The notes beneath the pieces are model-generated. The model did not search any database and had not been told where the DNA came from. It saw only the letters and a program-made list of their open reading frames with translations. A stretch of DNA of 64,000 nucleotides from a virus. How positions within the stretch are numbered: the first letter of the stretch is position 1; each line of letters opens with the position of its first letter. The DNA lies in the IMG/VR virus record IMGVR_UViG_3300027759_000063, positions 35,594 through 99,593 of that record; one strand, written 5' to 3'. The position numbers and the translations under genes are program-made. Shown here piece after piece: positions 4,400 through 32,925 of the stretch.

Positions 4400-5203
4400 A
4401 TGAAATACACTGTAGTTACCACTTTTAATGCTGATGGATACAAGACCTATGGATCCAGAATGATTGATACTTTTTTGCGCACTTGGCCCAAAGAAGTGCA
4501 ACTACAAGTGTACGCCGAAGGTTGTGTTGTCAATCAGACTGCACCCAATTTACAAGTGTTAAGTTTAGAAGGGTCAAGCCCTAAACTTGTGGCATTTAAA
4601 AATACCTGGCGTGATGTGCCCAAGGCCAATGGTGATGTTTCTGCAGATCTTGTTAGATCAAAAAGAAAAGATGCAGGCAAAGGATTCAAATGGCATGCTG
4701 TGAGATTTGCTCACAAGGTGTATGCTATATTTCATGCCGCCCAGCATGCCACAACAGATTGGTTGATCTGGATGGATGCTGATATGATTTGCCATAGTCC
4801 CATGACAGTGGCAAAACTATCCGAGTTTTTTCCAGACTCCGCAGATCTTTGTTTTGCTGGACGCAGTAGAAAATTCACCGAATGTGGCCTGTACGGCATG
4901 CGCATAACCGAGCCTACAATCAAATCCTGGTTGTCAGATTTCCAACACATGTATGATCATGCTGAATCAGGTATATTTGCCCTGGATGAATGGCATGACA
5001 GTTATGTATTTGACGCCGTAAGAAAACGTCATGCCTTGCGTGAACTCAACTGGACGGCACACCTGCAAATGGGCGAAGGTCATCCACTAATCAATTGCGA
5101 ATGGGGTGCATATATTGATCACCTCAAGGGTGAGAGAAAAAGTCTTGGCCGTAGCCGGTCATCAGACATACGAGTCAAAAGAAACGAAAGTTACTGGAGA
5201 TGA
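4400..5203 (+). CDS. Glycosyltransferase, GT-A type
   Basis: A 267-residue protein opening MKYTVVTTFNADGY, the first strand of a nucleotide-sugar-binding domain, with WLIWMDADM carrying a DxD motif at residues 126-128. A basic segment follows the DAD region and the C-terminus is strongly basic (RSRSSDIRVKRNESYWR), possibly contacting a lipid- or nucleic-acid-like acceptor. First gene of a plus-strand operon of six genes that run to 9200 with constant overlaps; its stop overlaps the next start as ATGA. It is divergent from the gene at 3534. No ribosome site is evident, consistent with a leaderless or very short-leader mRNA from the box at 4387. Acceptor unknown. Confidence 0.75.
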   Translation: MKYTVVTTFNADGYKTYGSRMIDTFLRTWPKEVQLQVYAEGCVVNQTAPNLQVLSLEGSSPKLVAFKNTWRDVPKANGDVSADLVRSKRKDAGKGFKWHAVRFAHKVYAIFHAAQHATTDWLIWMDADMICHSPMTVAKLSEFFPDSADLCFAGRSRKFTECGLYGMRITEPTIKSWLSDFQHMYDHAESGIFALDEWHDSYVFDAVRKRHALRELNWTAHLQMGEGHPLINCEWGAYIDHLKGERKSLGRSRSSDIRVKRNESYWR

Positions 5204-6003
5204 TATTTCTCAGCAAGAACGGTGATGACGAGTACATTGATATGTATGCACAAGGACTTGGACTTGAGCCCACACCGTTGGAGTCATGGCGTTATGAGGA
5301 CAGCACAGAGCCACTCATGCTACGTGGCATCATGAAACACAAGATCATCAAACAGTGCTGGGCAGATAACCGACCGTTTAGATACATGGATTCAGGTTAC
5401 CTGGGTAATCGTCCCAGTTTTAAAAATCCACATGGCTGGAAGCACTGGCATAGGATTGTGCCCAACAACCTACAACATGATCAAGTGATACCACGACCCA
5501 GTGATCGATGGAATCAACTGGGACTAGAAGCGGCCAATCGCCGACGTGGCAGTGCAATACTGATTGTGGCACCAGATGAAAAGCCTTGCAAGTTTTATGA
5601 CATAGAATTAGACACCTGGCTGGCAGAAACTGTGGCCACTATCAAACAACATACTGATAGACCCATCGTCATACGTGAACGCAACAAGAGTCGTACTGAT
5701 AGAAAAATCAATCGTGTGGAACATGCACTAAATGATGTGCATGCAGTTGTGACCTTTAACAGCATAGCAGGTACTGAAGCCATATTGGCAGGTACCCCAG
5801 TATTTGCCATGGCACCATCAAACGCTGCCAGACCAGTCAGCAACACAGACTTGAGTTGCATAGACAATCCATGGTTTCCAGATCGGGATCAGGTGTTGGC
5901 CTGGGCATATCATTTGGCCTATGCGCAGTTTCACATAGACGAATTCAAGAACGGACGAGCAGAACGTATAATTAAACAAACTGAGGAGATACTGAATGGT
6001 TGA
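5200..6003 (+). CDS. GT-B-like capsule/LPS-type glycosyltransferase (paralogue B)
   Basis: This 267-residue product is plainly paralogous to the product of 10107-11069. Both contain LRGI-x-K-x-K, then Y-x-D-[ST]-GY-x-GN, HRI, IxRPSDR, a YDI[ED]LxTWL segment, TDR-x-[IV]VIR, and a Ser-Ile-Ala-[GA]-x-EAIL-x-G-x-P block near the C-terminus. That last block matches the donor-binding half of capsule-synthesis GT-B enzymes. It has ATGA overlap with the previous gene and an 8-nt overlap with the next, so it is translated with them. Probably a sugar or polyol-phosphate transferase; the substrate is not visible. Confidence 0.72.
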   Translation: MIFLSKNGDDEYIDMYAQGLGLEPTPLESWRYEDSTEPLMLRGIMKHKIIKQCWADNRPFRYMDSGYLGNRPSFKNPHGWKHWHRIVPNNLQHDQVIPRPSDRWNQLGLEAANRRRGSAILIVAPDEKPCKFYDIELDTWLAETVATIKQHTDRPIVIRERNKSRTDRKINRVEHALNDVHAVVTFNSIAGTEAILAGTPVFAMAPSNAARPVSNTDLSCIDNPWFPDRDQVLAWAYHLAYAQFHIDEFKNGRAERIIKQTEEILNG

Positions 6004-6643
6004 GCATTATGGATGGAAATTCCCGGACTTTGAAACACACCTTCCGCGAATGTTGAAGAAAAGTGTGGACAAAGGTCTCTCAGCTGAATATCAAGTTGCT
6101 GTGCGACGCCGAAGTATTGAACTGTGTAAAAATCGGGACCTGGCTCTGGACATTGGCGCTAATGTGGGCTTGTGGAGTCGTGACTTTGTTGGCAGTTTTG
6201 CTCGTGTGATAGCATTTGAACCAGTGGCTGTGTTCAGAGAATGTTTAGAACACAATGTGCAAGGCACAAATTTTGAAGTTCAACCAATTGCCTTGGGCGA
6301 TCAAGACACCCAAGGCACCATGATCATCACAGAAGATAATTCTGGTCACAGTCACCTGGACCCTGCTACCATGGGCACAGGCAACGTGCAAGTTGTTCGA
6401 TTGGACACACTGAATTTTCATGATGTCAGTTATATCAAAATTGACTGCGAAGGATATGAGTATCGTATTTTGCAAGGTGCAGAACAAACCATTCGCCGTT
6501 GTAGGCCTGTGATAGTGATAGAGCAAAAACCACATGATGCCTACAGCAAACAATACGGGCAGTTTGCGGCAGTGAAACTGTTGCAAGAATGGGGCATGAT
6601 CAAACTAGATCAAGTACGTGACGACTGGATCATGGGGTGGTAA
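5996..6643 (+). CDS. FkbM-family SAM methyltransferase
   Basis: A 215-residue class I methyltransferase. The SAM-binding motif I LDIGANVG is at residues 51-58, followed by an acidic strand end in IAFEPV. A YIKIDCEGYEY block typical of FkbM enzymes lies near 145-155, then VIVIEQKP. FkbM enzymes usually O-methylate sugars or polyketides, and within this island a sugar-capping role is the natural reading. It overlaps the preceding gene by 8 nt, and the next gene begins in its stop codon. Solid at family level, with substrate inferred from context. Confidence 0.85.
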   Translation: MVEHYGWKFPDFETHLPRMLKKSVDKGLSAEYQVAVRRRSIELCKNRDLALDIGANVGLWSRDFVGSFARVIAFEPVAVFRECLEHNVQGTNFEVQPIALGDQDTQGTMIITEDNSGHSHLDPATMGTGNVQVVRLDTLNFHDVSYIKIDCEGYEYRILQGAEQTIRRCRPVIVIEQKPHDAYSKQYGQFAAVKLLQEWGMIKLDQVRDDWIMGW

Positions 6644-7293
6644 TGACTGCACTTGATCTAGTAGAAATTAAAGAAGGATGGTATTGGCCAAAAGATGATA
6701 CCAATACTTGGAAATTTTTATTAGAAAATTTTGATTTGCCCGGCCGAATATCCAGTTATGTTGATGACAAAAAAGTTGTGGTACAAGCTGGCGGCAACTG
6801 CGGTATGTATCCAAAACAATATTCAAAAATTTTTGATGCTGTTTATACTTTTGAACCAGACTGGCTAAATTTTTATTGTTTAGCAATGAATTGCCCTGAA
6901 GAAAATATAGTTAAATCTCAAGGATGTCTTGGTAGTGATCCTGGATTGGTCGATCTTCATATCAAATCTAAGAGTAGAGGAAAAAGTTTTATCAACGGTG
7001 ATGGTCTTTATCCAATCTATCTGATAGATAATTTGGGACTGACAGCATGTGATTTGATACACTTGGACATAGAAGGCTATGAATATTTTGCTCTTAGCGG
7101 TGCTGTGTCTACTATCAAAAAATTCCAACCAATCATAGCCATCGAAATGTGGGATCCACCTCCAAATAAATATCTAAATAGATTTGGGGACAACATCAAT
7201 CAAAAAACCAAAGACCTACTGGCATCATTGGGGTACTCACATGTTGATACACTGAACGAATCTGATTGGATATACACATGCAAACAAAAATAA
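6643..7293 (+). CDS. FkbM-like SAM methyltransferase, divergent
   Basis: The start is the ATG at 6643, which overlaps the upstream TAA (TAATG); a GTG six bases earlier is in frame but less likely. The 216-residue protein has a modified motif I (VVVQAGGNCGMYP), an acidic FEPDW, and a DLIHLDIEGYEY block like the FkbM gene just upstream, ending IIAIEMW. The Asp of motif I is replaced by Gln, so SAM binding may be altered or the enzyme specialised. The region is more AT-rich than its neighbours. Probably a second sugar O-methyltransferase; the tandem pair suggests duplication followed by divergence. Confidence 0.78.
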   Translation: MTALDLVEIKEGWYWPKDDTNTWKFLLENFDLPGRISSYVDDKKVVVQAGGNCGMYPKQYSKIFDAVYTFEPDWLNFYCLAMNCPEENIVKSQGCLGSDPGLVDLHIKSKSRGKSFINGDGLYPIYLIDNLGLTACDLIHLDIEGYEYFALSGAVSTIKKFQPIIAIEMWDPPPNKYLNRFGDNINQKTKDLLASLGYSHVDTLNESDWIYTCKQK

Positions 7294-7964
7294 TTGTGTT
7301 ACAAAATAATCAGCTGTCGCAAACAGTGGCACAGGATTGCATAGAACAGGCCGCAAAATTTGGAATCACTGCTGAAGTGTTTGATGCTGTAAACGGATTT
7401 GATGCGCCAAGACATTTGGAATTATTAAACATCAAACCACTGGGAAAATTCAAAAAAGGGCGAGTGGGGATAATTGGCTGTTTTTTAAGTCATTATTACT
7501 TGTGGCTTGATTGTGTCAAACACAATGTTCCGTATCTTGTGCTAGAACACGATGGATATTTAATCAAACCACTGCCAGACAACATTTTAGACTTGTTTGA
7601 TGATGTTATAAAATTAGATTCTGGAAATCCTTACAGCAATTTGTATGAACACTGGTTGGCCACACACTCAAATGATTCATCATCAATTTGGACCATTCGA
7701 GATGGTGAACACGGCAGAGGTAATCACGAAACTGCTGCTGGCTGGAATACCATGGGAGCCTATGCCTACATCATCAAACCACATGCCGCAGTCAAGCTGA
7801 TTGACTGGGTCAAAGACCATGGTTTTCTTCCAACTGACTGGTTGATAGGTACAAAAATTGTGTCGGTGAGCCATCACTGTCCCTCTATTGCAAGATTACA
7901 TCCACTGTATGCAAAAGATGGTAATATTAAAAAATTATCTACAGAAATGAATCTGGAGAAATAA
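7278..7964 (+). CDS. GT25-like LPS glycosyltransferase
   Basis: The start is ATG 7278, inside the end of the previous gene (16-nt overlap); a TTG four codons earlier is less likely. The 228-residue product has the GT25 (LPS galactosyltransferase) pattern: VFDAVNG near 34-40, GCFLSHYYLW near 67-76, then VPYLVLEHDGYL near 84-95 with the acidic metal-binding positions. Such enzymes add galactose or glucose to lipooligosaccharide. It ends with TGGAG close to its stop, which provides a ribosome site for the next gene. Family call is fairly secure; substrate is inferred. Confidence 0.78.
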   Translation: MQTKIIVLQNNQLSQTVAQDCIEQAAKFGITAEVFDAVNGFDAPRHLELLNIKPLGKFKKGRVGIIGCFLSHYYLWLDCVKHNVPYLVLEHDGYLIKPLPDNILDLFDDVIKLDSGNPYSNLYEHWLATHSNDSSSIWTIRDGEHGRGNHETAAGWNTMGAYAYIIKPHAAVKLIDWVKDHGFLPTDWLIGTKIVSVSHHCPSIARLHPLYAKDGNIKKLSTEMNLEK

Positions 7965-7965
7965 A

Positions 7966-8646
7966 ATTACAAGCCCTAGCCAATATTATGAAGAATCAGT
8001 ACGACTGGGTCGTGAGTTTCAACTTAGCAACAAAAATTGGGCTGGATATGATGTTGTAAAATATCAAAAGCTCATCAAGGACCTGGTGACTCGATACAAT
8101 GCTAAAACTCTATTAGACTATGGCTGCGGCAAAGGACAACAATACCAAGACCCACTGCCATATGGCATGTTGTCTGGTGAGGCTATGCCTGAAAGTCAGT
8201 GGCAAACTTTTGATCAATATCTTGGTGTCACTGTGTATCGTTACGATCCTTGTGTGGCAGAATTTGAAACCCCACCGCCTACAGATGCCAAATTTGATGG
8301 TGTGATATGTACACAGGTATTGAACAGCATACCCGATGATGACATGACCTGGGTGCGTGAGAAACTTGAGTATCATGCTGAAAAGTTTTGTTTTGTTGGC
8401 ATAAATTTTCAACGTGCTGCCAAGGGCAAAAAAATCATATACGATTCTGACTATTTTCGTGTGCCACGCACTAGAGAATTTTTCCGCAGCTACTATCAAG
8501 ATTGGACCGGAAGTGACTTGTTTTGGTGGTTCAAAGATCGTCCATACTACGCGGAGTGGGCCGACGATCAATTGAGCGGCACCTGGCATGATGTACCAGA
8601 AACATTTGTTGGTAAGTATGAGTTTGTGGAAGTGAACCATCGATGA
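7966..8646 (+). CDS. SAM-dependent methyltransferase, probable ATT start
   Basis: The first standard start codon in frame is GTG at 8086, but the frame is open and protein-like for 40 codons upstream, giving ITSPSQYYESVRLGREFQ and then NWAGYDVVKYQKLIKDLV before motif I. In related phage methyltransferases this segment precedes LLDYGCGKG. The upstream stop is the TGA at 7948-7950, and no ATG, GTG or TTG occurs between it and 8086. The best candidate is ATT at 7966, with GGAG seven bases before it. From there the protein has 226 residues, motif I DYGCGKG near 51-57, and an RVPRTREFFRSYY segment near the C-terminus. The acceptor is unknown; a glycan or small metabolite is likely from context. 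Confidence 0.75.
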   Translation: MTSPSQYYEESVRLGREFQLSNKNWAGYDVVKYQKLIKDLVTRYNAKTLLDYGCGKGQQYQDPLPYGMLSGEAMPESQWQTFDQYLGVTVYRYDPCVAEFETPPPTDAKFDGVICTQVLNSIPDDDMTWVREKLEYHAEKFCFVGINFQRAAKGKKIIYDSDYFRVPRTREFFRSYYQDWTGSDLFWWFKDRPYYAEWADDQLSGTWHDVPETFVGKYEFVEVNHR

Positions 8647-9200
8647 TAATTGATCCTGAATATCAAGCCCAACTGGCTGACATGCACAGTCAAGGAAAAT
8701 TTACTAACGGCAGTAAAGTTATTAAAAACATAAAGAGATTTCTAAATCAATATAATTTGACTAGTGTGTTAGATTTTGGATGTGGTCATGGTGCCCTGAT
8801 GGCTAGTATCAATCAAGCATATCCCAACATAGCAATAGATGGCTATGACCCCGGCAATCCCAAACACAATCGCATGCCTCAACGATCATTTGATGCAGTG
8901 GTCAGTGCTGATGTATTTGAACACATAGAGCCTGAACACCTAGCCAGCACGTTGCAGTTGATCAGTAGTAAGATACAAGTTGCAGGATGGTTTAGAATTG
9001 CCTGCTATCCTGCAAAAAAACACCTGCCCGACGGACGCAATGCTCACTTGATTGTACAATCACCCACGTGGTGGCGCCAACAACTGTTGGCCAACATGAA
9101 TGTGACCATAGTTGCGGAAGAGATTGCTGTGTTTGACAAAAGCCACAAATGGCCAGGCATTGTGGGCGAAGTTTACGACGTCACTGTAGAAGTCAAGTAA
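8643..9200 (+). CDS. SAM-dependent methyltransferase (class I)
   Basis: A 185-residue protein with motif I VLDFGCGHG near 42-50, DGYDPGN as the acidic second strand, FDAVVSADVFEHI as the motif IV/post-motif segment, and AGWFRIACYPAKK downstream. This is the methyltransferase-11/23 type. It overlaps the preceding gene as ATGA and is the last gene of the plus-strand glycan operon. Its 3' end overlaps the convergent gene on the minus strand by 28 nt, with no terminator hairpin between the two operons. Probable methyl transfer to a sugar intermediate. Confidence 0.8.
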   Translation: MIIDPEYQAQLADMHSQGKFTNGSKVIKNIKRFLNQYNLTSVLDFGCGHGALMASINQAYPNIAIDGYDPGNPKHNRMPQRSFDAVVSADVFEHIEPEHLASTLQLISSKIQVAGWFRIACYPAKKHLPDGRNAHLIVQSPTWWRQQLLANMNVTIVAEEIAVFDKSHKWPGIVGEVYDVTVEVK

Positions 9201-14475: not shown

Positions 14476-15468
14476 TTACTTGGCTTGACGGCTACGGATC
14501 ATGGCCAAGATGTCCTGGGCATTTTGTCCACTGGCTGCAGGCCTGGCAACTGGTGCGGCTGCTACCGGAACATCGTCCTCGTCAAAGTCACTTGCTGGCG
14601 CAGGTGTTGTCTTGATCGTGGGCTTGGCTGCTGGTGCAGGTGTGTCCTCATCCACCGGTGCGGCTCCAGCTCCACCCGGTGTTTGAACACCAGCAGGACG
14701 GAAGTACTGACCCCAACGTTCTGTGTCGTAAGGTTGTCCATCCACGCTTGCCTCAAACATCTCTTTGATCACCTTCAACTCAACATCGCCTGGCTTCTTG
14801 GGCAGGAATGTGCTCAAGTCAAATGCGCCATGCGTGGCAACAGCGGCTTGTTCGGCTTCGGTCAATGCGGATTCTTTACGTGCCCACTTTGAAGTGCTGT
14901 AGTCAGCGTAGCCACCTTTGGATGTCTTGGTGATACGGAAGTCCAAGCCACGCAGGGTGTCTGTGGGCATTTCTTCCAGCTCAGGGTCCATCAGTGCCCC
15001 TTTGATGGTGGCAAAGATTTGTGGTCCAATGATGAAACGTCGGATGGGATTCTCTGGAGTCTTGTCTTCACTCAGGGGGTTCTCACGCACAAAGCCTTGA
15101 AAGATGTATGAACGTTTCTTCCAATACTTGCGACCCATTTCTTCAAGGCTCTTGTCCTTGAACCAGGTGCGTACTTCTGCCAAGATGGGACAGGCTTCGC
15201 CCCACATTTCCACACAAGGCACTTGCACGTACACCTGTTTGCTATCGCCTTCGCCCCGGATGCCAGCAAAAGGCAAACGAATCATTGCTCGTTCTTGCCA
15301 GAAAAATGTGTTTTTGGTATTTGCATCGGGAAGGAATCGCAGTGTTGCACTTTGTCCTTCTTCCATGTTCCAGTGAGCGTAAATGGAATTGTCTCCACCT
15401 GTTTGTCCGCCACCTTTGTTGCCTTCTGCTGCCTGTAGTCGTGCTCTGATTTCTGCTAATGATGCCAT
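14476..15468 (-). CDS. 32: Single-stranded DNA-binding protein, gp32-like
   Basis: Start ATG 15468 is preceded by AAGGAG; a longer frame to 15549 runs through promoter and hairpin and is rejected. The 330-residue product has a basic N-terminus (LAEIRARLQAAEG), an OB-fold core with ATLRFLPDAN and FFWQERAMIRLPFAG, a Cys pair in VPCVEMWGEACPI matching part of the T4 gp32 zinc region, and a long Ala/Pro-rich acidic linker (about 255-310). Unlike T4 gp32 it ends with a short basic segment (AQDILAMIRSRQAK). It coats ssDNA for replication, recombination and repair. It has both an early-type and a late-type promoter upstream. Confidence 0.88.
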   Translation of the reverse strand: MASLAEIRARLQAAEGNKGGGQTGGDNSIYAHWNMEEGQSATLRFLPDANTKNTFFWQERAMIRLPFAGIRGEGDSKQVYVQVPCVEMWGEACPILAEVRTWFKDKSLEEMGRKYWKKRSYIFQGFVRENPLSEDKTPENPIRRFIIGPQIFATIKGALMDPELEEMPTDTLRGLDFRITKTSKGGYADYSTSKWARKESALTEAEQAAVATHGAFDLSTFLPKKPGDVELKVIKEMFEASVDGQPYDTERWGQYFRPAGVQTPGGAGAAPVDEDTPAPAAKPTIKTTPAPASDFDEDDVPVAAAPVARPAASGQNAQDILAMIRSRQAK

Positions 15469-15609: not shown

Positions 15610-18600
15610 TCATCTGAGCAAAGCCAGTGATTTTATTCTTGCCAGAAGCGCATCGCCTTCTTGAATGTCCGTTTCTTTGCCTTCGTAGTATGAACCGGTC
15701 ATTGCACTGTTGCTGTTGATTGGATCATCTACGCCTTCGCCCATGCTGTAGGGCATGCCCACTGCACCACCATCTTCCTGCATCCCTGGCTGCACAGGAC
15801 GAAGTGCTTCTTTATTAACTTTAAGTGGGTCTCTAACACCGCCGCCGCCTGTTTTGGATATTCCATACCACTCTGCGCCACCAAGACCACCATCTGCAGG
15901 AAATGGTTTGGCTTCAAATTTGTTTTGATATTCGCCAGTTCCAACGGTTACATATTCGTGATCAACAGGATCATAGTATATGGTAAACTTATCATAGACC
16001 ATATAAGGTCTTAATTCTCCTGCGGCTTTTTTCTTCTTCTCTGTGCCAAATAACTTTCCAAGGAAACCTTCTTCCATGTAACATTCAGCCAAGCCGTGTT
16101 CCGGGCAGTATTCACCTTCAGCTGTCATATTGCAGGAGCCTTCACTCACAGGTTTTTGCTGTTGTTTTTGTAATTTCTGGCGGGCGTTGTATTCTTTATC
16201 TGGATCACTAAATCCTTGGTCACCTAATTTGTGCCCTGCATAAGCACCAGCAATACCGCCAGCCACAGTGCCTAGGGCAGGAACCACACTGCCCAATCCT
16301 GCACCAGCAAGTCCTCCGGCCAGGGCACCTTTCCAACCTTCGTCAAGACCGATGTCTTGGGCAAAGCGATCACTGATCCATTCATGAGGATCACCATCTC
16401 TGGCTTTCTTTGTGCCATAGGGCATGTCATCAAAGTAGTAGTCATACAGCGCATCATACAGTGCATCACTCATGTCACCGGTTTGAGTGAAGTCTTTGAC
16501 GTCACGTCGGAATGTGTCTTTGATGTGTTCCAGTGTGCTGCCTGTGGAATCTGTCAACACACTTTCTTTCACAGGTACGCCGGCGTATTTCAGCATTTCA
16601 GCCAATTCACGATCTTGCTCAAATGTACTCATGTTGTCGCCTTCTGCCACACCTTTGCCGTCACCTGCACTAGGTATCATTTTCCATTTTTTAGGATTAG
16701 CTACTGCGTTATCGTGTTGCGCTCTAACCCGTGAGTTCTCATCTTCGGGCGCTTTCCATACACCGTCCCAACCAAATGATCCCGATTGAGCTCCTGTTCT
16801 AGGGGTGCCAGACTTACTAAAGTCTTTGTTATCTTTTCTATTCTTTTTTACTGCGGCAGCAAGTTCATCACGTCCAGCTTGGTTATAAGGTCTGCTTAAC
16901 TGAGTTGTAGGAGCACCATATGCACCCTGGCGTTGCGTATGCTTCCAGTCTGGTACTACGTAGCCAGCACGAACAGCTTCATCCATTTCACCTTCTGCCA
17001 TGCCTTGTTGTATATCATGAATATTCACAGTGGTCATATCACCATTTGATGCCTTGACTGTGACAGTGTTGCCTTCTACAGAGACCACAGTCCCGTATTG
17101 AGTTTTCATGCCAGGTTTGATCTGTGAGTCACCGGAGTCTTCTGCTACCCCTTGCTGTTGTGGTCCTTTGATGGCCTGCAACAATGCTCGTGCAACCACA
17201 CGGTCTTTTTCTTTTTCTTCTTCAGGCAACTGAGCATAATTTTGTTTCATCAACTGTGCTCGTTGTTGAAGCTTGGCTTCTAGTTTGCCGGCTGCTGCCA
17301 ACTTTGCTGTGTCATCGAACTGGTCTGGATCTTGCACAAATGCTTGAGCAGTGGTGTTCCAACCTTTGTGAATAGCATCACTGATGGCTTCAATGTCTGT
17401 GACGCCTTGATCAATCATTTGTTTGGCATAGGCTGCTGACTTCAAGTTGGCTTGCCATCCAAATGTGTTGCCTGGTGCGCTACGTCCATAGCCATATGCT
17501 TTGTCCAGTGCTTCATCACTGATGGTAGCCAGTTGTTGAACACTGAGTTGGCCAGCGTTTTCTTTCACAGGGGGTGCTGTGTCTTGTGGCACATCAGCAG
17601 GTTCTGCCTCAGTGCTTTGAGGGGTTTGTACACCCAGTTCGGCCAGTCTGCGTTGCACATCTGAGTCGTCCCAAATGTTGGCACGGCCTTGACTCTTTTC
17701 AGCTAAGTCGTTAAGAATGTCAAACAGTTCATCATCGCCCACAATGTCATACAACAACTCGGTGGCATTGGTGGCATCAGGACCAACGATCAATTCTGCA
17801 CTCATGAGTTGATTGAGTTTTTCCATTTGGTCAGGAGTTTCTGGCAGGGCCCAGGTGCCTTCACTTAGATTGTTGATCCAGCTTTCAAATATTTCGGCTT
17901 CTTTCATGTTGTTTCCTTGTTGTTGTATCTTGGCCAGTGTGGGCAAGGCAGCTTCAATTCTAGCGTCCAAGGTCTGTTCCACAAACAGGTCGCGTAGATT
18001 TTCTACCAGGGCTTCGGCTTCACCAATGTGATCAGGAGCCCAGGTTTCAAAGTATGCTTGATAGCCACGTGGGCTGCCAAGATGCTTCATTGTTTCTTGT
18101 AGATTATGATAGTATTGTCTTGCGTTTTCCACCAGCTCTTGTGTGACACCTTCGTATACACGGCGGTGTTGCGCACGGTTGAATCGACTTAGCACAGCCA
18201 TTTCACGCACAATCTCTGTTATGTGGTTGCCACGTACATCGTATGGTCGACCACCTTGGCGCACATGTTCCAGCATGGCTCTACCGCCTGCTAAACTTTT
18301 GAATCCCAGTCGAAAACGTTCTTGGTCAGCTGTTTCAATAAACAAACTTTCCACATAGCGAAAACGCTTGTCCTCTTCGCCTAGCTGACGATTGTGATTG
18401 ATTACTAGTCGGGCTTGTGTCTGCTCGCCCATGTAGCTGGTCTTGCGATTGCCGTAGTAGCCTTCAAACAGGCCTTCCTTGATGGCAGCAATGCCAGCAA
18501 GTGTGTGCTTGAGTTGATTGATGTCTTTGGGGCTCCAGGTTACACCATTACTGGCCGCATGGTTGCTGAGTTGCTCTAAAAAGTTGTACCATTCTTCTTT

Positions 18601-18847: not shown

Positions 18848-20437
18848 TTAGCGCAACATTGATATGAACGGCATTGGTTCAATGATGTTGTCGCCGTGAT
18901 CTTTCATGTGTGTGTCCAGTTCAGCATGATAAGTCTGTAACAGCATGAGCATGCGCACCACCAACAACGAACTCATCACAAGATCATCAGTTTCTCCAGG
19001 TTTGGCAGCATAACTACCGCCAGATGCAACAAAAGTTTTGAGCTCTGAGATCAAGGGTCTGCTGTGCAGTCGCATGCGCCCAGACTCCACAAGGATTTTA
19101 AACTTGTTACAGGCAGTGAGTTTGGCCTTGTTTGTGGTGTTGAATCCTTTGCGGAATCTACGTCCTGTAGTGCCTGTTACTGAGTTGTCGCTTAAAAAGT
19201 AGCCACGGATGTTTTCTTCCCCATATTCGTTTATTGAAATCAAGGCAGCTTCACCAATGGTGTTGTTTTCTACGCTGTAATAAATTTTCTTGTCATCTTT
19301 TACCACATCATATAATTCATTCACAATGTCTACCAATAGCTTGATCTGTGTGGGAATGTCTGTTTTGTTGTGGCGCCATTCAGCCACTTGCTCTGTGGTT
19401 TCTGCTTCAAACACCTGTATGGCAGCAGGATCGCCTCCGGTGCCTAGACTTGGATCCAAGGCCACAATGTATATCTTGTCTTTGGCAGGAGTTTTGTACC
19501 AACGCACTTGTCCTGTGCGGCGGTTGGGTTCTATTCCTTCCAGATCAATCAATTTGGTAGGAGCAATCAGTGTTTCATCATTGATGACGAAATCACAATC
19601 CATTTCTCTGCGGAATCGATCTTCTCCCAGTTGTGCCAGCTGCTCTGCACCCCAGGTATCGTCACGATCGGGGTGTTCACGCCAGTAACTTCTAAACGCA
19701 CGAAATCCATTGATACCTAACTTGGTGGTGTTGCCATGCTCGTCCTGCGTTTTGTTTGCTCCTTTCCACAGCAGTGCAAACTGATCTTCGTCTGAGTTGG
19801 GAGTACTTGTGATAATGGCCTTACCACCTGTGGCCAGGGTGGGTGAGATAGAAGTCCAGAACTCTCGAGCAATGGTGGGTCGCACAAACGCAAATTCGTC
19901 AGCATACAAGAGTGAAATACTCATACCCCGACCAGTTGTTTCAGTAGTGGTCTGCGCCACAATACGTGATCCGTTTTCAAATTCCAAGCTGTTCTTGTTG
20001 TAACTGGTGGCACCGGCTCTGATATGATTGGGGCACAGTTCATATGCATACCGAATACGTTGCATGATCTCTTGTGCGCCTGTGTATTTGTGTGCGGCCA
20101 CAAGGATAGTTGAGTCTGGCACAAACATTGCATACCACAGCAGGTAGCCGGCGGCCGATGTTGATTTGCCGGTTTGTCGAGGCATTAGACTTATTGAATA
20201 TCTGTAGTTGTGATAGGTTTCAATCAGTCGTTTCTGATATTCAAATGGATGATACAACATCTTGCCGCGTGTGGGGTGTTGAATCATAAAGAAGTTGTCC
20301 ATGAAGTACAAGGGACCTGTCACAGGATCTGCGCAGGCAGCAAACTCAACAAGTTCTTGTTCAGTGTAGACTTCTTTGCGGTGTGGTGCCTTGACCAGCA
20401 CCGTTTCTAGATTCTTACTTGGTGTTGGTGAAATCAT
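18848..20437 (-). CDS. 17: Terminase large subunit gp17
   Basis: A 529-residue motor-nuclease. Walker A MPRQTGKS is at 85-92, Walker B SLLYADE at 175-181, and the coupling motif STP at 211-213. The RNase H-like nuclease has IVALDPS (D328), SVENN (E390) and ETDDLVMS (D484/D485). It pumps DNA into proheads at the portal and cuts the concatemer. Its start overlaps the end of the SGNH hydrolase gene by 23 nt, linking packaging to the cassette upstream. Probable small subunit gp16 is encoded 9 kb away at 29787. T4 gp17 is 610 residues, so this is a compact version. Confidence 0.96.
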   Translation of the reverse strand: MISPTPSKNLETVLVKAPHRKEVYTEQELVEFAACADPVTGPLYFMDNFFMIQHPTRGKMLYHPFEYQKRLIETYHNYRYSISLMPRQTGKSTSAAGYLLWYAMFVPDSTILVAAHKYTGAQEIMQRIRYAYELCPNHIRAGATSYNKNSLEFENGSRIVAQTTTETTGRGMSISLLYADEFAFVRPTIAREFWTSISPTLATGGKAIITSTPNSDEDQFALLWKGANKTQDEHGNTTKLGINGFRAFRSYWREHPDRDDTWGAEQLAQLGEDRFRREMDCDFVINDETLIAPTKLIDLEGIEPNRRTGQVRWYKTPAKDKIYIVALDPSLGTGGDPAAIQVFEAETTEQVAEWRHNKTDIPTQIKLLVDIVNELYDVVKDDKKIYYSVENNTIGEAALISINEYGEENIRGYFLSDNSVTGTTGRRFRKGFNTTNKAKLTACNKFKILVESGRMRLHSRPLISELKTFVASGGSYAAKPGETDDLVMSSLLVVRMLMLLQTYHAELDTHMKDHGDNIIEPMPFISMLR

Positions 20438-21170
20438 TTATAATTCTCTCTGCAAATATTGCATGTCCTCGTGGACCAGCATGCATGCGATCCCTGGCAT
20501 ATTCTACTTCTTCACGGCTTTTGGCAAACCAATCATGTGCATTGTAAGTCAAACAACGGATGCCCAGTCTGGTGCACAATCCTTCAACAGCTAAACGGTT
20601 ACGTGCATTATTTAAGTCTGCATTGCGATCATTCAAAAACCAAGTTTTAATATAACCATCTTGATCAGCACCGCCAATTTCACTGCTGGGCATGTAGGTA
20701 TCATGCGTGTGATCAGTTTTTTCTGTTATCAAATCAAATCGATGTTTTGGGGGTGCTGCCATTACCACCAATTTAGGTTGTAGTATTGGCAGCCAATGCT
20801 CTGCTATCATAAAACAAGTATCTGCGCTGGTCCCTCCCCAGGCCAGGTTATAATTTTTCAAGCCCAAGGCCTGTGATACCAAATAACTCCATGTGGCTTG
20901 TTCTGGTAACCCAATACCAATGGTATAACTACACCCCAGTGATACCATGCTAGTCGCTTGCGGATCAAACTCTTCAGATCTAAATCCTGAACTGTTAATA
21001 CGATATGTTATAGCATCTGGTTCGAGCCAGCCTTTGGTGCGAAAATATTCTCGATATTCTTCATTCTGAATCAGTCGCTGAAAACTTTCTTCGGTGTCTG
21101 TGGGCATCCACTGTAATGTTTTTCCAGCTGACTTTGTGCCAAAGTGCCAAAGTGTTTTATTTTTCTTCAT
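20415..21170 (-). CDS. SGNH/GDSL-type hydrolase
   Basis: A 251-residue protein with the SGNH blocks in order: SLGCSYTIGIG near 78-87 (nucleophile Ser81), LAWGGTSAD near 109-117 (Gly and oxyanion residues), and ARDRMHAGPRGH near 225-236, where D227 and H230 give the DxxH pair. Enzymes of this family remove acyl groups, often acetyl, from sugars. The gene overlaps both neighbours (radical SAM upstream by 14 nt, terminase downstream by 23 nt). The oxyanion block is NLAWGGTSAD rather than the usual GxND, so activity should be regarded as probable. It may edit a glycan or modified peptide made by the adjacent enzymes. Confidence 0.8.
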   Translation of the reverse strand: MKKNKTLWHFGTKSAGKTLQWMPTDTEESFQRLIQNEEYREYFRTKGWLEPDAITYRINSSGFRSEEFDPQATSMVSLGCSYTIGIGLPEQATWSYLVSQALGLKNYNLAWGGTSADTCFMIAEHWLPILQPKLVVMAAPPKHRFDLITEKTDHTHDTYMPSSEIGGADQDGYIKTWFLNDRNADLNNARNRLAVEGLCTRLGIRCLTYNAHDWFAKSREEVEYARDRMHAGPRGHAIFAERIINDFTNTK

Positions 21171-22326
21171 TATATTCCTTTACGATATTGGGCCACAGGT
21201 CCGCAAACCTTGTGGTTTTCTTTAGTGTTGTTTCCATGTCTGTGTGCCAGGCCAATACATCGGGCACAAAATCCTGGTTGATCAAATAACTGTTGTCTTT
21301 CAATGTTGCACGATATCTGTTAAGCACCTCAACGTTGAGATTTATTTGGTTTTGTTTTTGATATTTTTCAACCACACGATCAATTTCATCTACCGCAAGT
21401 TGCCTTAACCTGGCTGATTGGCGTCTAATATCTAGTGTCCAAGGATTGGTTAACTCGCACCAAAAGATACCCAAATTCTCTTTGGCACAAAAATCGTAGT
21501 ATGCCATGAGATCCAACGCACAATAAACGGAATAAGCCGGATGTGCTTTTATCAACAAATTGTGTTGTTTCATGACGTGAATATTTTTCACAAACTGCGC
21601 CCAGCTTGCACCATGACGTACATATTCAAATTTATCCGCGTCAGCGTTGTCAAAACTGATCATCCACTCCACTTGTGGCCAGGTCCTAAGCCGCTGGTAA
21701 ATGGCATTGGTTTCAAGATCCATGCTAAGATTTGTGGTGATCATAACCCGTGTTGTGGCAGGGTTGATATAGTCAAGAAACTGTTCTAGTCCTTTTTGCA
21801 ACAAGGGTTCACCGCCGCCTAGGCTGAGTCCTTGAATGTTGTGCCCTTGTGTGCGGGCAAGTTCAATCAGGTCTGCGTGTTCATTTTTGACATGATTGAT
21901 GGGAATCTTTTTTATGCTCTGCCAGGCTGTGCTGGTTTCAGGATTGCAGTACACACAGGCAAGATTGCACAGGTTACTCCAGTTTACCACTAAATGCTCT
22001 AGTTTAAAAAAGTCTGGGTCTGAGTCAATGGCTGCCAGGGTTTCCTGAGAAGTATACTTCACTGTGCGGCCACTAGACCCGGTGGTTTCTTCCAGTCGCT
22101 TACACCACAAGCATCCAGGTGCCCACTCGCCTCGTGCCATGGCCTGCTTCATACTTGTGACCACTGGCCCTTTGATAATTTCTTGAATGGAGTTTTTCTT
22201 TGCATTGCCAATCATGTCCACACAATGAAAACATGGGCTAACTTCCCCTGCTTGATCAATATTAAGAGTGGTCCAAGGTGCAGGACAAAATGTAGGGCTT
22301 TGAGATATCATTTTGGGTGTATCCAT
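21157..22326 (-). CDS. Radical SAM protein, twitch/SPASM type (copy 1)
   Basis: A 389-residue radical SAM enzyme. The [4Fe-4S]-SAM motif is CNLACVYC with C120, C124 and C127, followed by SLGGGEPLL at about 168-176. A Cys-rich N-terminal region (C14 in FCPAPWTTL; CFHC at 32-35; CLWC at 72-75) probably holds an auxiliary cluster, a twitch-like arrangement placed before the barrel. VEWMISFDNADADKFEYVRHG matches the second copy closely. Such proteins modify peptides, tRNA or sugars by radical chemistry. It overlaps the 2OG oxygenase gene by 19 nt and the SGNH gene by 14 nt. Substrate unknown. Confidence 0.88.
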   Translation of the reverse strand: MDTPKMISQSPTFCPAPWTTLNIDQAGEVSPCFHCVDMIGNAKKNSIQEIIKGPVVTSMKQAMARGEWAPGCLWCKRLEETTGSSGRTVKYTSQETLAAIDSDPDFFKLEHLVVNWSNLCNLACVYCNPETSTAWQSIKKIPINHVKNEHADLIELARTQGHNIQGLSLGGGEPLLQKGLEQFLDYINPATTRVMITTNLSMDLETNAIYQRLRTWPQVEWMISFDNADADKFEYVRHGASWAQFVKNIHVMKQHNLLIKAHPAYSVYCALDLMAYYDFCAKENLGIFWCELTNPWTLDIRRQSARLRQLAVDEIDRVVEKYQKQNQINLNVEVLNRYRATLKDNSYLINQDFVPDVLAWHTDMETTLKKTTRFADLWPNIVKEYNEEK

Positions 22327-22865
22327 GTGTATGAGGTTACTCTATAAGAGTCTGCGGGTGTAAGCATGGCATGCCATATCAGCGGCCTATATCCTGTGCT
22401 GTCTGCTTGATTGATCATGATATACCCAGCATTGGGCTGTTCTGGTGTTTGATAGCGCAAAGTTTTGGGATCCTTGTACCAGTAAAAGGCAGTGCCAGGA
22501 CCCTGCCAGGTCAGATGCATGCTGCCCGGCATCTCGCCGTCGGTGTGCATGCCACAAGTGAATCCTGGTTCATCTAGCCACCATGCTGTGCCCGAGTAAG
22601 GGTGTAATTTTCTACCCACACCCTGTTCCAGTGTTGACCATTGTTGACCGAGTTCACTGTGCCATTGATCAATCCAAGGTATAGCCGTGTCTGTTATGCG
22701 CCGTCGTGCCCAGTTTTCTTGTCCTTCTTGACGTTGCCAAGGTAGACTGATCCAGTCTGTGGTCAAGACTTGAGCAGCCAGTTCCTTACTCACAGCATGT
22801 GCTACCCTGAACAAATTCATTTCAGAATCTACTGCTGTCACAAGCATTGTGCAATCTCCGGCCAT
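22308..22865 (-). CDS. 2OG-Fe(II) oxygenase
   Basis: A 185-residue dioxygenase of the prolyl-hydroxylase-like double-stranded beta-helix type. The facial triad is H107-x-D109 in CGMHTDGEMP and H165 in LIWHAML, with R175 in SYRVTSY placed to bind 2-oxoglutarate. Such enzymes hydroxylate proteins, nucleic acids or small molecules. It lies between two radical SAM genes with overlaps of 28 and 19 nt, so all three are translated together and likely act on one target. The start could be ATG 22865 or the internal ATG 18 nt downstream (MLVTAVDSEMN). Confidence 0.85.
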   Translation of the reverse strand: MAGDCTMLVTAVDSEMNLFRVAHAVSKELAAQVLTTDWISLPWQRQEGQENWARRRITDTAIPWIDQWHSELGQQWSTLEQGVGRKLHPYSGTAWWLDEPGFTCGMHTDGEMPGSMHLTWQGPGTAFYWYKDPKTLRYQTPEQPNAGYIMINQADSTGYRPLIWHAMLTPADSYRVTSYTWIHPK

Positions 22866-23977
22866 AGTTGCGCAAACTTACCAGCGGTGTCAGGATGATA
22901 CCGGGTTTCATTATCGTGTATGTGCTGGCGAAACTGCTGTGCAATTCTGCCACGTGCTTGTGCTACTGAATTGTAATTGCCTAATGCTTGATCAAAAAAC
23001 TGATGTTCAGCTGGTGTAGCAATGTTCATGGTATAGAACCGTTCAATCTCTTGTGCAGCCAATTCAGCCACCCGAGGACCATGCAAGAAAGGATCAAGGT
23101 ATTCGGGTTGAAACAAGTTTTGCCATAACACAGTGGCGCCTGCATCTTGCACAAACTGTCTAAACTCACAGATGCGTGTGGCATTGTACATGTTGTACAC
23201 TGCATGAACACCACCCCATTGGCCTTGTGACTTCATTAGGCCTTGTATAGTCTTCAAGTTCTCTTGCAACACAGTCCAGTTGCCGCCGTGACGCACATAT
23301 TCAAAGCGATCCGCAATGTTGTCAAAGCTCATGCTCCAGCCCACTCGCTTGCGTTCGGCCAGCTTGCGGAATATCCGGTTGATCTGCAGATCCACATTCA
23401 AGTTGGTAATCAGGGTCACAATGGCAGTGTCTGGGATCACATCCAGCAGTCGGTTGTTTTCGGGCAACAACAGTGGCTCGCCACCTACCAAGGCAACTTC
23501 ATGTATGTGTTCATAGTGCTGTTCAATAAAGTCACACACCTGTTCATAGTAAGGCCTTGCACCAGACTTAAACGGTATGTTTTTGATTCCTGCCCATTTT
23601 GAACTGCATGCTTCGCCACAATAGTTGCAACTCAGGTTGCATGTGGTGTTCCAACGCACATCTACTATAACAGGATAGTGATACTGATCACCTGCGGCGG
23701 CATAATCAAAATCAGGATTAACATTGTTGTGCCAGGCACGTTCTGAATCTGCACCAAAGCGTTCGGCACGAACACAGTTAGAGCAATAGTCATGCGCTTG
23801 CCCTTGTGAGAGACTGGTGCGTATTTCTGCCATCAAGTCGGAATTGAGTACTTGTTCTATTGACTGTGAGTTGAGGTTGCCCAGCATGTTGGGGTTGCCA
23901 GCACAGCAGGTTTTAACATCGCCACGGGGATTGATATGCAGGCCACGCCAGGGCGCAGCACAGTAGAAATTGCTCAT
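22838..23977 (-). CDS. Radical SAM protein, twitch/SPASM type (copy 2)
   Basis: A 379-residue radical SAM enzyme with CNLSCNYC (C113, C117, C120), LVGGEPLL near 163-170, and an N-terminal Cys-rich part (YCAAPWRGL; TCCAG; YCSNC near 65-68). The core segment WSMSFDNIADRFEYVRHGG is nearly the same as in copy 1, and both open with a C-x-A/P-PW motif, so they are paralogues. A TAAATA box four bases before the ATG suggests late, possibly leaderless, expression as first gene of the cassette. Substrate unknown; an in-trans modification of a phage or host peptide or glycan is possible. Confidence 0.88.
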   Translation of the reverse strand: MSNFYCAAPWRGLHINPRGDVKTCCAGNPNMLGNLNSQSIEQVLNSDLMAEIRTSLSQGQAHDYCSNCVRAERFGADSERAWHNNVNPDFDYAAAGDQYHYPVIVDVRWNTTCNLSCNYCGEACSSKWAGIKNIPFKSGARPYYEQVCDFIEQHYEHIHEVALVGGEPLLLPENNRLLDVIPDTAIVTLITNLNVDLQINRIFRKLAERKRVGWSMSFDNIADRFEYVRHGGNWTVLQENLKTIQGLMKSQGQWGGVHAVYNMYNATRICEFRQFVQDAGATVLWQNLFQPEYLDPFLHGPRVAELAAQEIERFYTMNIATPAEHQFFDQALGNYNSVAQARGRIAQQFRQHIHDNETRYHPDTAGKFAQLWPEIAQCL

Positions 23978-23995: not shown

Positions 23996-24433
23996 TTATT
24001 GACACCAACTTGTTTTGGCTTCGCCGTAGTATTCTCTGGCATAGCCATTGGCAATCAACATTTGACGCAGGCTTTGCCCGTTGAGTATGACATCGCCCAA
24101 CACACGCCCGCCATACTTGTCCCAGTCCATGAGCACAATTTGGCGTTGTGTGGCTTGTGCAATAGCATTTTTAGTAAATGCTGTGGCTGCTTGACCACGC
24201 TCATTTTCACTCTCGCACTGTGCTCGGTGCCCTTTTTCAGGAGTGTCCACACCAAACACACGGATGCTGAGTTCTTTCTTCAGTGGGTCTGGCAGGAACG
24301 GTGCGTGGAATGCCACTGTGTCCCCATCAATCACCCGAGTGATTTGTGCGTCATATGTGACACCAGGCTTTTGTTTGCCTTGGGCTATGGCCAACGCAGG
24401 AACAATGAGTAAGAGTAGGATGAGTTTTTTCAT
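23996..24433 (-). CDS. Secreted thermonuclease-like (SNase) protein
   Basis: A 145-residue protein. It has a signal peptide (MKKLILLLLIVPALAIAQ, with an A-x-A cleavage context) and then a staphylococcal-nuclease fold: TRVIDGDTV near 32-40, IRVFGVDTPE near 57-66, RGQAATAF, and DKYGGRVLGDV. These carry the usual Ca2+-binding Asp residues and catalytic Arg/Glu. It would cut DNA or RNA in the periplasm or outside. In a phage this might clear extracellular DNA, degrade host or competitor DNA at entry, or be packaged. It lies between a fibre gene and the radical SAM cassette, which is unusual for T4-like phages. Cys78 and Cys144 could form a disulfide. Confidence 0.87.
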   Translation of the reverse strand: MKKLILLLLIVPALAIAQGKQKPGVTYDAQITRVIDGDTVAFHAPFLPDPLKKELSIRVFGVDTPEKGHRAQCESENERGQAATAFTKNAIAQATQRQIVLMDWDKYGGRVLGDVILNGQSLRQMLIANGYAREYYGEAKTSWCQ

Positions 24434-31113: not shown

Positions 31114-32295
31114 TTATGCTCCAGGATTTGGATTGTTTCTACCTGCGGTCTGTGCCTGACGTGCTGCTTGTTGTTGTGGAAATATCCAACCATCAGCTTT
31201 GTTGGTCACTGCTCGAGTGGCACCAGGCAGTGACCCAATTACAACATTTTTGCCCAGGGATGTGGCCTCACTCTTGGTGATGGCTGCAAGATTTTTACCT
31301 TTAAAGGTTTGGTTGACTCTGACTGCTTTTTGCGCGGCACCAATAAGACCCAACACACTTCCGCTTTGCAAATCACCAAGAATACCAGCACCAGCATCCA
31401 GCAAACCACCCTGGCCAAACACTGTGGCAGTTGACCCAGGTCTAGAAAGCGGACTTGTTGTTGTGTCATAATGGGAAACATCAGCGAACCCTTGAATATT
31501 TTGATCGCCGCCACGCTTGCTGTCGCCCACAGCGCCGGCATAGTACTTTACAGTTTCATAAGCAATGGTCATTGAGTTTTGCATGACACCACCACCTTCT
31601 GCGTAACTGTATTGATCATGACTCCAGTTTGTGATCAAAGGATTGATCAAGATGTACTCGGCAAACTTGTGTTGATCCATGCCGTAGATTCTAATGTCAC
31701 GAAAGAATGGTGGTTTGCCAGACGTTGCACTACTGCCGCCGTCATTGTAGGCCTCACCAATGTAGCCCCAGTCGTTGACATTGCCTATTCGTTGTTTGGC
31801 GTATATGTCTCTTGAGTTGTATCCAAATCCAGCCTGACGATTGGCGCTGGCACCATTTTCACCATTGTTGTTGTTGGCTTCAAGATACTGCTGGGCAGGA
31901 TCTTTATAGTAATAGCTCATGTAGTAGTACCACATTTTTCTCACTAGATCGCCACTGGTGTCGTGCAGAGTCACTGACACTGGTTCGTAATTGATTTTCT
32001 TTTGTATTATACGTTTGCGGTTGTACTGGTTCAGTGTTTCAGTATCAATATTGTACTTGGGCAAGTCAATGGTTTTTACCGCAAGACTCAACATACTGAT
32101 TTCATCATTGCCCAGCGCACCTCGTAGAAAAGGAATCTCTTGTATGTTAAGCGTGAAGCTCACATGAAAGAGAAACTTGTATCGGGGCTTTAGTTCGTAG
32201 GCGTTGGTGGTAAAAGTTTTGCTTGCGTGAGTGTAATCACGCAAGCTGTTGTTGCCTACGAACCCTTTTAAGAAGTCCTGGCCAAATGTTGGCAT
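31114..32295 (-). CDS. Tail-tube-like virion protein
   Basis: A 393-residue protein. The N-terminal 150 residues (YELKPRYKFLFHVSF, VKTIDLPKYNIDTETLNQYN, EPVSVTLHDTSGD) read like a gp19/gp54-type tube fold, and the C-terminal half is Gly/Ser-rich. The gene is adjacent to gp19, which suits a tube-initiator (gp54-like) or tail-associated role, but direct similarity to T4 gp54 is not visible to me. Starts three bases after the gp19 stop, with a weak ribosome site. The C-terminal 100 residues are low in complexity and basic. Confidence 0.7.
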   Translation of the reverse strand: MPTFGQDFLKGFVGNNSLRDYTHASKTFTTNAYELKPRYKFLFHVSFTLNIQEIPFLRGALGNDEISMLSLAVKTIDLPKYNIDTETLNQYNRKRIIQKKINYEPVSVTLHDTSGDLVRKMWYYYMSYYYKDPAQQYLEANNNNGENGASANRQAGFGYNSRDIYAKQRIGNVNDWGYIGEAYNDGGSSATSGKPPFFRDIRIYGMDQHKFAEYILINPLITNWSHDQYSYAEGGGVMQNSMTIAYETVKYYAGAVGDSKRGGDQNIQGFADVSHYDTTTSPLSRPGSTATVFGQGGLLDAGAGILGDLQSGSVLGLIGAAQKAVRVNQTFKGKNLAAITKSEATSLGKNVVIGSLPGATRAVTNKADGWIFPQQQAARQAQTAGRNNPNPGA

Positions 32296-32298
32296 TTG

Positions 32299-32925
32299 TT
32301 AGATACCAGCGCCGGTTACCACATCGCCTAAAGTTCTACCAACTTCAGTGCCCACACCAGTACCTTCAGGTGTTTGATTGGCGTTATCGTAAGCAATGCT
32401 CATTTCAATTGTGACTGCTTCGTTCGTGCCGTAGTTGAGGTCTTGATAGTTAGCACCTTTGAGGTAGCAGCCATACAGTTCCCAAGTTTCTAACACAACT
32501 GGTTCATTGGCACCATTGCCACCATCAAGGATTTCAATCTTGGTTAAAAATTTGTAATCAATACCTGACGCCGCAGAACTCATTTCCAAGAAGTCCATTT
32601 GTTTCTGCAATTGCTCGCCAATCAATCTACTCACCGCACCGCTGGCGTCATCTCTAACGCTGCAAGTAATATCTGCCCAGGTATGACGACCAGCCAATTT
32701 CAATGTTGAGTTGTAGATCGGCAATGCAATTTCTTCAAAAGTCAAATTGGGACGAGCCACACTGATCACTTGTTTGGTCAATTCTGTTCTGGGTGTACTT
32801 ACACCAAAATTTTCAAACATCACTCTAAAGCGATATTTGAGCTTGGGCATCAACAGGCCTTGGGTTGGTGAGCTTTGGCCACTTGCCAAGGGTACTGTCA
32901 TTCTCTGTAATGATGAAACTGCCAT
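32299..32925 (-). CDS. 19: Tail tube protein gp19
   Basis: A 208-residue protein (MAVSSLQRMTVPLASG, YRFRVMFENFG, RPNLTFEEIALPIYNST, HTWADITCSVRDDASG, ETWELYGCYLKGANYQDL). This is the beta-rich tube protein of T4-like phages, which forms the inner tail tube under the gp18 sheath. T4 gp19 has 163 residues, so the loops are enlarged here. Preceded by AGGAG with a GTAAATA box further upstream, and followed directly by the tube-like protein gene. Confidence 0.85.
   Translation of the reverse strand: MAVSSLQRMTVPLASGQSSPTQGLLMPKLKYRFRVMFENFGVSTPRTELTKQVISVARPNLTFEEIALPIYNSTLKLAGRHTWADITCSVRDDASGAVSRLIGEQLQKQMDFLEMSSAASGIDYKFLTKIEILDGGNGANEPVVLETWELYGCYLKGANYQDLNYGTNEAVTIEMSIAYDNANQTPEGTGVGTEVGRTLGDVVTGAGI

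Follow-up and report, generated by a model that had tools for sequence, protein, structure and literature searches.

The window analyzed here is a 64-kb stretch of viral DNA (positions 35594-99593 of the 99,593-base IMG/VR record IMGVR_UViG_3300027759_000063), in which a cassette of four intact open reading frames (ORFs) occupies positions 23977-20415 of the minus strand and runs into the gene of the terminase large subunit gp17. In 5′ to 3′ order, the cassette encodes rSAM1, a radical S-adenosylmethionine (SAM) enzyme with an N-terminal twitch domain (22838..23977, 379 amino acids (aa)); a 2-oxoglutarate (2OG)-Fe(II) oxygenase with a predicted prolyl-4-hydroxylase (P4H) fold (22308..22865, 185 aa); rSAM2, a second N-terminal-twitch radical SAM enzyme (21157..22326, 389 aa); and a protein predicted to be a divergent SGNH/GDSL hydrolase (20415..21170, 251 aa). 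The terminase gene (18848..20437, also on the minus strand; Terminase_6N, phrog_36964) forms the edge of the insertion slot and lies outside the cassette chemistry. A sequence-only reading of the window had singled out this unit as a candidate for one undescribed modification pathway.

The overlapping frames leading into gp17 on which that proposal was built were recovered, with overlaps of 28, 19, 14 and 23 bp between consecutive ORFs when the longest start codons are used. The starts conserved in homologues are at 22847 for the oxygenase (yielding a protein of 179 aa and an overlap of 10 bp) and at 22311 for rSAM2 (ATGA); alignment with the homologues suggests that these are the probable starts and that the overlaps are shorter. 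An AAAGGA sequence is present 5′ of the SGNH start. In pairwise comparisons with three relatives, dN/dS (the ratio of nonsynonymous to synonymous substitution rates) was 0.05-0.13 for all four genes versus 0.06-0.07 for the terminase, and all four genes are under purifying selection. The pattern of the cassette is well outside chance expectation.

Proteins encoded by the cassette

Both radical SAM proteins score above the curated cut-off of the NF033640 (N_Twi_rSAM) model, which is 170 bits (205.3 bits for rSAM1 and 193.2 bits for rSAM2), and, as in other members of the family, an N-terminal twitch domain is followed by the radical SAM core. In an alignment of 25 radical SAM proteins, the CxxxCxxC motif (C113/C117/C120 of rSAM1) and four N-terminal cysteines (C6, C24, C65 and C68 of rSAM1) are invariant across the rSAM1 and rSAM2 groups. 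In a tree of 42 family members inferred by a quick method, the two groups form sister clades with an SH-aLRT support of 99. The suggestion that the two enzymes are paralogous twitch-type proteins held, and they are sister paralogues. In the sources available, the family has no assigned reaction; here it is represented by two sister lineages tied to a phage packaging locus. No rSAM2 relatives were found in bacterial genome contigs.

A profile of the rSAM proteins matched, as separate domains, ChlB in its radical SAM core and BtrN in its twitch domain. In the latter match (E 2.5e-6), cysteines 6, 24, 65 and 68 align with BtrN C169, C187, C232 and C235, which, in the BtrN structure paper, are reportedly the ligands of the auxiliary cluster. 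BtrN, the 2-deoxy-scyllo-inosamine dehydrogenase of butirosin, oxidises an aminocyclitol, and its auxiliary cluster, held by four cysteine ligands, is the probable acceptor of the substrate electron (PMC9012708). The twitch domain of BtrN is C-terminal to the core, whereas that of rSAM1 and rSAM2 is N-terminal, and beyond the twitch domain the likeness is limited to the radical SAM motif. Further matches of the radical SAM cores are to YydG, an enzyme acting on a peptide, and to anSME, which matures sulfatases.

Four residues of the oxygenase, H107, D109, H165 and R175, do not vary among 38 sequences. Its AlphaFold model (predicted local distance difference test score (pLDDT) 92.3) was matched by Foldseek to PolD, the P. 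putida P4H and PHD2 with E of about 1e-5, a template-modelling (TM) score of about 0.6 and 9-16% identity; the best fold matches in the PDB include the P4H of EF-Tu, PHD2 and a viral collagen P4H. Among viral models, the closest (TM 0.9) belongs to an uncultured phage and is uncharacterised. By sequence, the window's protein matched neither a Pfam or PHROG family nor, in any meaningful way, a PDB entry; none of the 38 members hit a P4H or 2OG-oxygenase family of Pfam, and a profile retrieved no P4H from the PDB. Residues and model place the protein in the 2OG-Fe(II) superfamily, with a predicted double-stranded beta-helix, the HxD...H motif and a 2OG-binding arginine. While fold and HxD...H...R residues are shared with the P4H-fold oxygenases, the low identity and the silent sequence profiles indicate a sequence family separate from the P4H families.

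The fourth protein has an invariant serine S81 (block I) and histidine H230, with D227 of the block V DxxH motif conserved in at least 90% of 49 sequences. Its AlphaFold model (pLDDT 92.4) matches TesA, CgnD and CE2 acetyl-xylan esterases, and the protein has about 70 additional residues at its N-terminus. The Lipase_GDSL_2 score of the window copy, 19.3 bits, does not reach the cut-off of 32.9 bits, and 24 of the 49 relatives match this model at E <=0.1. By predicted fold and catalytic residues, the protein is a divergent SGNH hydrolase; the fold matches do not determine its substrate. The profile and structure searches that the sequence-only reading had called for identified an N_Twi_rSAM pair, a P4H-fold oxygenase and an SGNH fold, and the catalytic residues of all four proteins, described there as near-complete, are in place.

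Modularity of the terminase-linked locus

IMG/VR searches retrieved more than 200 loci, of which 84 with a readable region 5′ of the terminase remained after removal of near-duplicates. Since this sample was drawn partly with cassette genes as queries, it overstates the frequency of the cassette. The rSAM1 gene is present in 75 of the 84 loci. It stands alone in 23, with SGNH in 13, with the oxygenase in 9, with the oxygenase and SGNH in 9, and with rSAM2 and SGNH in 6; all four genes are found in 15. When the terminase alone served as a query (57 loci from the best 80 matches), rSAM1 was present in 48 loci, SGNH in 26, the oxygenase in 15, rSAM2 in 7, and all four in 5. Gene order was constant in all loci.

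The fewest changes required on the terminase tree were 6 for rSAM1, 20 for the oxygenase, 15 for rSAM2 and 17 for SGNH. Wherever rSAM2 occurs, SGNH accompanies it (22/22 loci); in independent pairs, SGNH changed together with rSAM2 and never in the opposite direction, with few supported pairs and a non-significant outcome (median p 0.25). The presence of the oxygenase varies independently of SGNH. In two contigs that carry the same protein (L071 and L072), rSAM1 and the oxygenase are joined in a single 564-aa frame, and in one locus (L101) the rSAM1 and SGNH domains share a single 618-aa frame.

With all four genes in 15/84 loci and in 5/57 terminase-sampled ones, and with modules toggling 15-20 times, an obligatory four-gene pathway was rejected. 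Of the proposed single pathway, the recurrence in a fixed order and the natural fusions of rSAM1 stand, and the obligatory unit does not; rare co-occurrence of the four genes, which had been named as a reason to abandon the proposal, weakens its strict form without refuting it. Different, already assigned substrates of the two radical SAM proteins had been named as another such reason, and no substrate is assigned to either protein.

The slot holds further genes. In three loci (L040, L046 and L104), an NAD-dependent epimerase gene (PF01370, E 4e-41), a small ORF and an ORF termed ORF330 also lie between SGNH and the terminase; by our own reading of its sequence, the small ORF may have an SGNH-like N-terminus, which Pfam does not support. 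In jumbo phages, homologues of ORF330 recur next to further genes of the N_Twi radical SAM family. Upstream of the cassette, the window encodes a staphylococcal-nuclease (SNase)-like protein with a signal-peptide-like N-terminus (23996..24433, minus strand; PF00565), which is a variable neighbour outside the cassette, and a protein that resembles a fibre and contains YadA head repeats. In some relatives, an ORF of 342-356 aa separates the nuclease from rSAM1. A large protein with a virion-protein match is encoded downstream, on the terminase side. The position of the cassette hints at late expression. As a separate observation, the slot 5′ of rSAM1 is filled either by the SNase-type nuclease or, in relatives, by an unrelated DNA/RNA non-specific endonuclease (L099:6905, L106:3527); both types have signal-peptide-like starts and are possibly exported, against competing phages.

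Radical SAM, Fe-S and sugar genes in related phages

The sequence-only reading, made from the window alone, could not show the wider context, namely, the size of the radical SAM family, the iron-sulfur (Fe-S) genes and the neighbours that point to glycans. The closest catalogued phages by terminase are those of the Wroclawvirus group (PA5oct and Paride; Arenbergviridae), with 53% identity. PA5oct is without the cassette and has a structural protein, detected by mass spectrometry, encoded directly 5′ of the terminase; the cultured phage Phosso also has no cassette at this position. A tblastn search with rSAM1, the oxygenase and SGNH found no relative in 50,697 phage records; with a more typical family member as a query, Vibrio phages K566 and K567 and a marine single-cell virus were retrieved.

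A search with the NF033640 model was performed on 14 related virus records of 88-364 kb. Matches above the family cut-off were present in all 14, and each of the 9 records longer than 200 kb encodes 7-16 such radical SAM proteins. Counting all matches at E <=0.001, some of them weak hits to radical SAM proteins of other kinds, gives 10-21 in ten records. The window's own record has two family matches. Besides rSAM1 and rSAM2, at least 26 lineages below 60% identity can be distinguished, and radical SAM genes elsewhere are scattered singly among core genes. Genes for IscU (NifU_N) and an A-type carrier were each found in 13 of 15 records; the other two records are fragments of about 90 and 108 kb. 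The window's own record has both genes outside the window, at record positions 16702-17073 and 14666-14989, respectively, and a 565-aa B12-binding radical SAM protein is encoded between them.

Sugar genes keep company with this family in phages and bacteria alike. One jumbo-phage paralogue cluster contains a NodU/CmcH-type carbamoyltransferase gene together with ORF330 homologues. In the cultured Vibrio phage K566 (L286, 8971-19173), a possible laboratory model, radical SAM genes alternate with those of GT8 and GT4 glycosyltransferases, with PagP downstream. Bacterial loci were found by motif search and inspected by eye, with Pfam applied to selected neighbours; family homologues in bacterial genomes and metagenome-assembled genomes (MAGs) lie close to genes for DegT aminotransferase, UDP-glucose/GDP-mannose dehydrogenase, carbamoyltransferase and GT2. 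A single 1597-aa protein of Synechocystis salina (L300:7116-11906) combines a sulfotransferase, an N-terminal-twitch radical SAM enzyme and a class III aminotransferase. Of 12 records, 11 encode FkbM methyltransferases, including the one that contains the window. In the window itself, positions 4400-9197 of the plus strand encode GT2, two FkbM methyltransferases, GT25 and a class I methyltransferase, which are likely surface-glycan genes.

Separately, in a Bdellovibrionia MAG (G019, contig C1 745513-774880), more than 12 radical SAM genes belonging to this family are packed into 30 kb, and the expansion of the family is therefore not confined to phages. A 335-kb contig of a Neomarinimicrobiota MAG (L299) has desaturase, B12 radical SAM and sugar genes, and this gene content suggests that a jumbo virus may have been binned together with a bacterium.

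Proposed glycan tailoring and its alternatives

The reading that we favour, at a probability of about 0.5, makes the locus a hotspot, flanked by virion genes and by the terminase, for a modular set of enzymes tailoring sugars of a surface glycan, either of the virion or of the host envelope. A near-constant rSAM1, optional oxygenase, rSAM2 and SGNH genes and a single gene order speak for it, and the gene neighbours together with the BtrN match favour sugars as a substrate. The glycan, the chemistry of each step and the target, whether virion or host, are inferred, and we propose the following scheme. rSAM1, and its paralogue rSAM2 where present, would abstract a hydrogen from a sugar carbon via the 5′-deoxyadenosyl radical, and the substrate radical would be oxidised via the four-cysteine auxiliary cluster, as in BtrN, with a keto sugar or a similar modification as the outcome. 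The P4H-fold oxygenase may hydroxylate the same glycan or its aglycone, and the SGNH protein may remove or transfer an acyl ester. Phage IscU and the A-type carrier would help to load the numerous Fe-S enzymes. Each module would contribute one optional decoration, so that related phages differ in their sets. A broader version is more tentative, and we think it rather unlikely as a whole: the uncultured jumbo lineage, with its 7-16 N-terminal-twitch enzymes per long record, its own Fe-S genes and an rSAM1 with swappable modules, would run a combinatorial radical-chemistry decoration making sugar structures on virions or the host surface that are not known from any phage.

Several observations weigh against tailoring of glycans. 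No glycosyltransferase or sugar enzyme is encoded within the window's cassette; the epimerase is present in the same slot in a few relatives. The nearest sugar genes (those at 4400-9197) lie on the opposite strand at a distance of about 11 kb. The bacterial loci, being inspected by eye, are examples rather than a count. ORF330 and the ORF of 342-356 aa gave no Pfam or PDB match. Frequent gain and loss suggest that modules can act alone. P4H-fold oxygenases often modify proteins, and many twitch/SPASM enzymes are peptide modifiers; in the twitch/SPASM subfamily, function is hard to predict from sequence (PMC6231123). Finally, adjacent genes can also become joined in one frame by chance: the nuclease and rSAM1 are joined in one frame in two loci (L023/L183), which we take as a chance joining and not as a functional fusion, and since this joined frame has no obvious purpose, the fusions are modest evidence.

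The same turnover can be read as that of independent accessory genes (morons) that share one insertion hotspot and have no common substrate. The toggling of the optional modules, the independence of the oxygenase from SGNH, the single placement of radical SAM genes elsewhere and the lack of a cassette 5′ of the terminase in PA5oct and Phosso all agree with this explanation, which is a serious one and falls somewhat short of an even chance. It accounts poorly for an order that is constant in every locus, for overlapping gene ends and for fusions of rSAM1 to both the oxygenase and SGNH; the restriction of rSAM2 to loci with SGNH also counts against it, albeit non-significantly in the tree-aware comparison. 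Since morons and glycan tailoring are partly compatible, our confidences in the readings need not add up to one. A protein target would suit both the fold of the oxygenase and the position among structural genes: the oxygenase would hydroxylate side chains, and the radical SAM enzymes would oxidise or cross-link residues in a fibre of the tail or a protein of the head that is encoded in the same region. In support of direct modification of a virion protein, the PA5oct gene just 5′ of the terminase encodes a structural protein, the oxygenase fold matches the P4H of EF-Tu, PHD2 and viral collagen P4H, the radical SAM cores match YydG and anSME, and some neighbouring fibres start with MANPPPPY. 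Such a fibre is found in 8/33 loci with the oxygenase versus 11/51 without it (truncated loci included), and prolyl hydroxylation of this N-terminus was accordingly rejected; the radical SAM family also adjoins sugar genes in other phages and in bacteria, and we regard a protein target as doubtful.

That the enzymes act on bases of the phage DNA or on a precursor nucleotide is improbable. The window encodes a deoxynucleoside monophosphate kinase (phrog_139), and a 2021 report in eLife is said to have implicated carbamoyltransferases in phage cytosine modification. The predicted oxygenase fold is, however, P4H-like and not of the TET/JBP type, and a TET/JBP-type DNA oxygenase was rejected on this predicted fold; a PF12851 (Tet_JBP) search was empty, with its control silent as well. 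A thymidylate-synthase-type hydroxymethylase (PF00303) was absent from 12 records, nine of them longer than 200 kb, in a search with a working control that did not extend to queuosine-type routes, and its absence disfavours hydroxymethyl-base DNA modification. Least probable is a pathway resembling those of ribosomally synthesized and post-translationally modified peptides, with the radical SAM enzymes as maturases of a small precursor. Twitch/SPASM enzymes commonly mature peptides and CgnD of the crocagin pathway is among the SGNH fold matches, but the overlapping genes leave no space for a precursor within the cassette, and no RRE/PqqD domain was found by a Pfam scan.

Parts of the glycan-tailoring picture have precedents. 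Jumbo cyanophages carry polysaccharide modification clusters with 2OG oxygenases, carbamoyltransferases and glycosyltransferases (Iyer 2021, PMC7824862), and pelagimyophages have radical SAM cassettes in a glycosyltransferase-rich hypervariable region (PMC7029224); both are, like the present locus, accessory. The former survey makes no mention of radical SAM, and, compared with either system, the cassette is placed at the terminase and its oxygenase is a separate sequence family. The relevant passages of Nishimura 2017 (PMC5332604) report T4-like marine viruses with Fe-S assembly genes, among them TARA_ERS488813_N000010 with an A-type carrier and 12 radical SAM genes; this combination resembles ours, whereas no cassette, order or substrate is described in those passages, and the phages studied here are, by terminase, jumbo relatives of Arenbergviridae. 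As far as our searches reach, the fixed-order, swappable, terminase-linked cassette with its paralogue pair and fusions, the oxygenase sequence family, which no Pfam or PHROG model covers, and the extent of the radical SAM family together with Fe-S genes in jumbo relatives are new.

In the literature that we found, expansions of phage radical SAM genes are noticed only in passing, and no phage N_Twi_rSAM member has an assigned substrate. The cassette offers a tractable entry, in which a single enzyme is near-constant and its three partners are optional, and in which fusions and contrasts between phages with and without each module occur naturally. If the substrate is a glycan, surface decoration by phages would extend past glycosyl transfer to radical and oxygenase chemistry, which would also explain phage-borne Fe-S assembly genes.

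Elsewhere in the window, two adjoining genes, at 31114-32295 (393 aa) and 32299-32925 (208 aa), encode proteins that match tail tube families.

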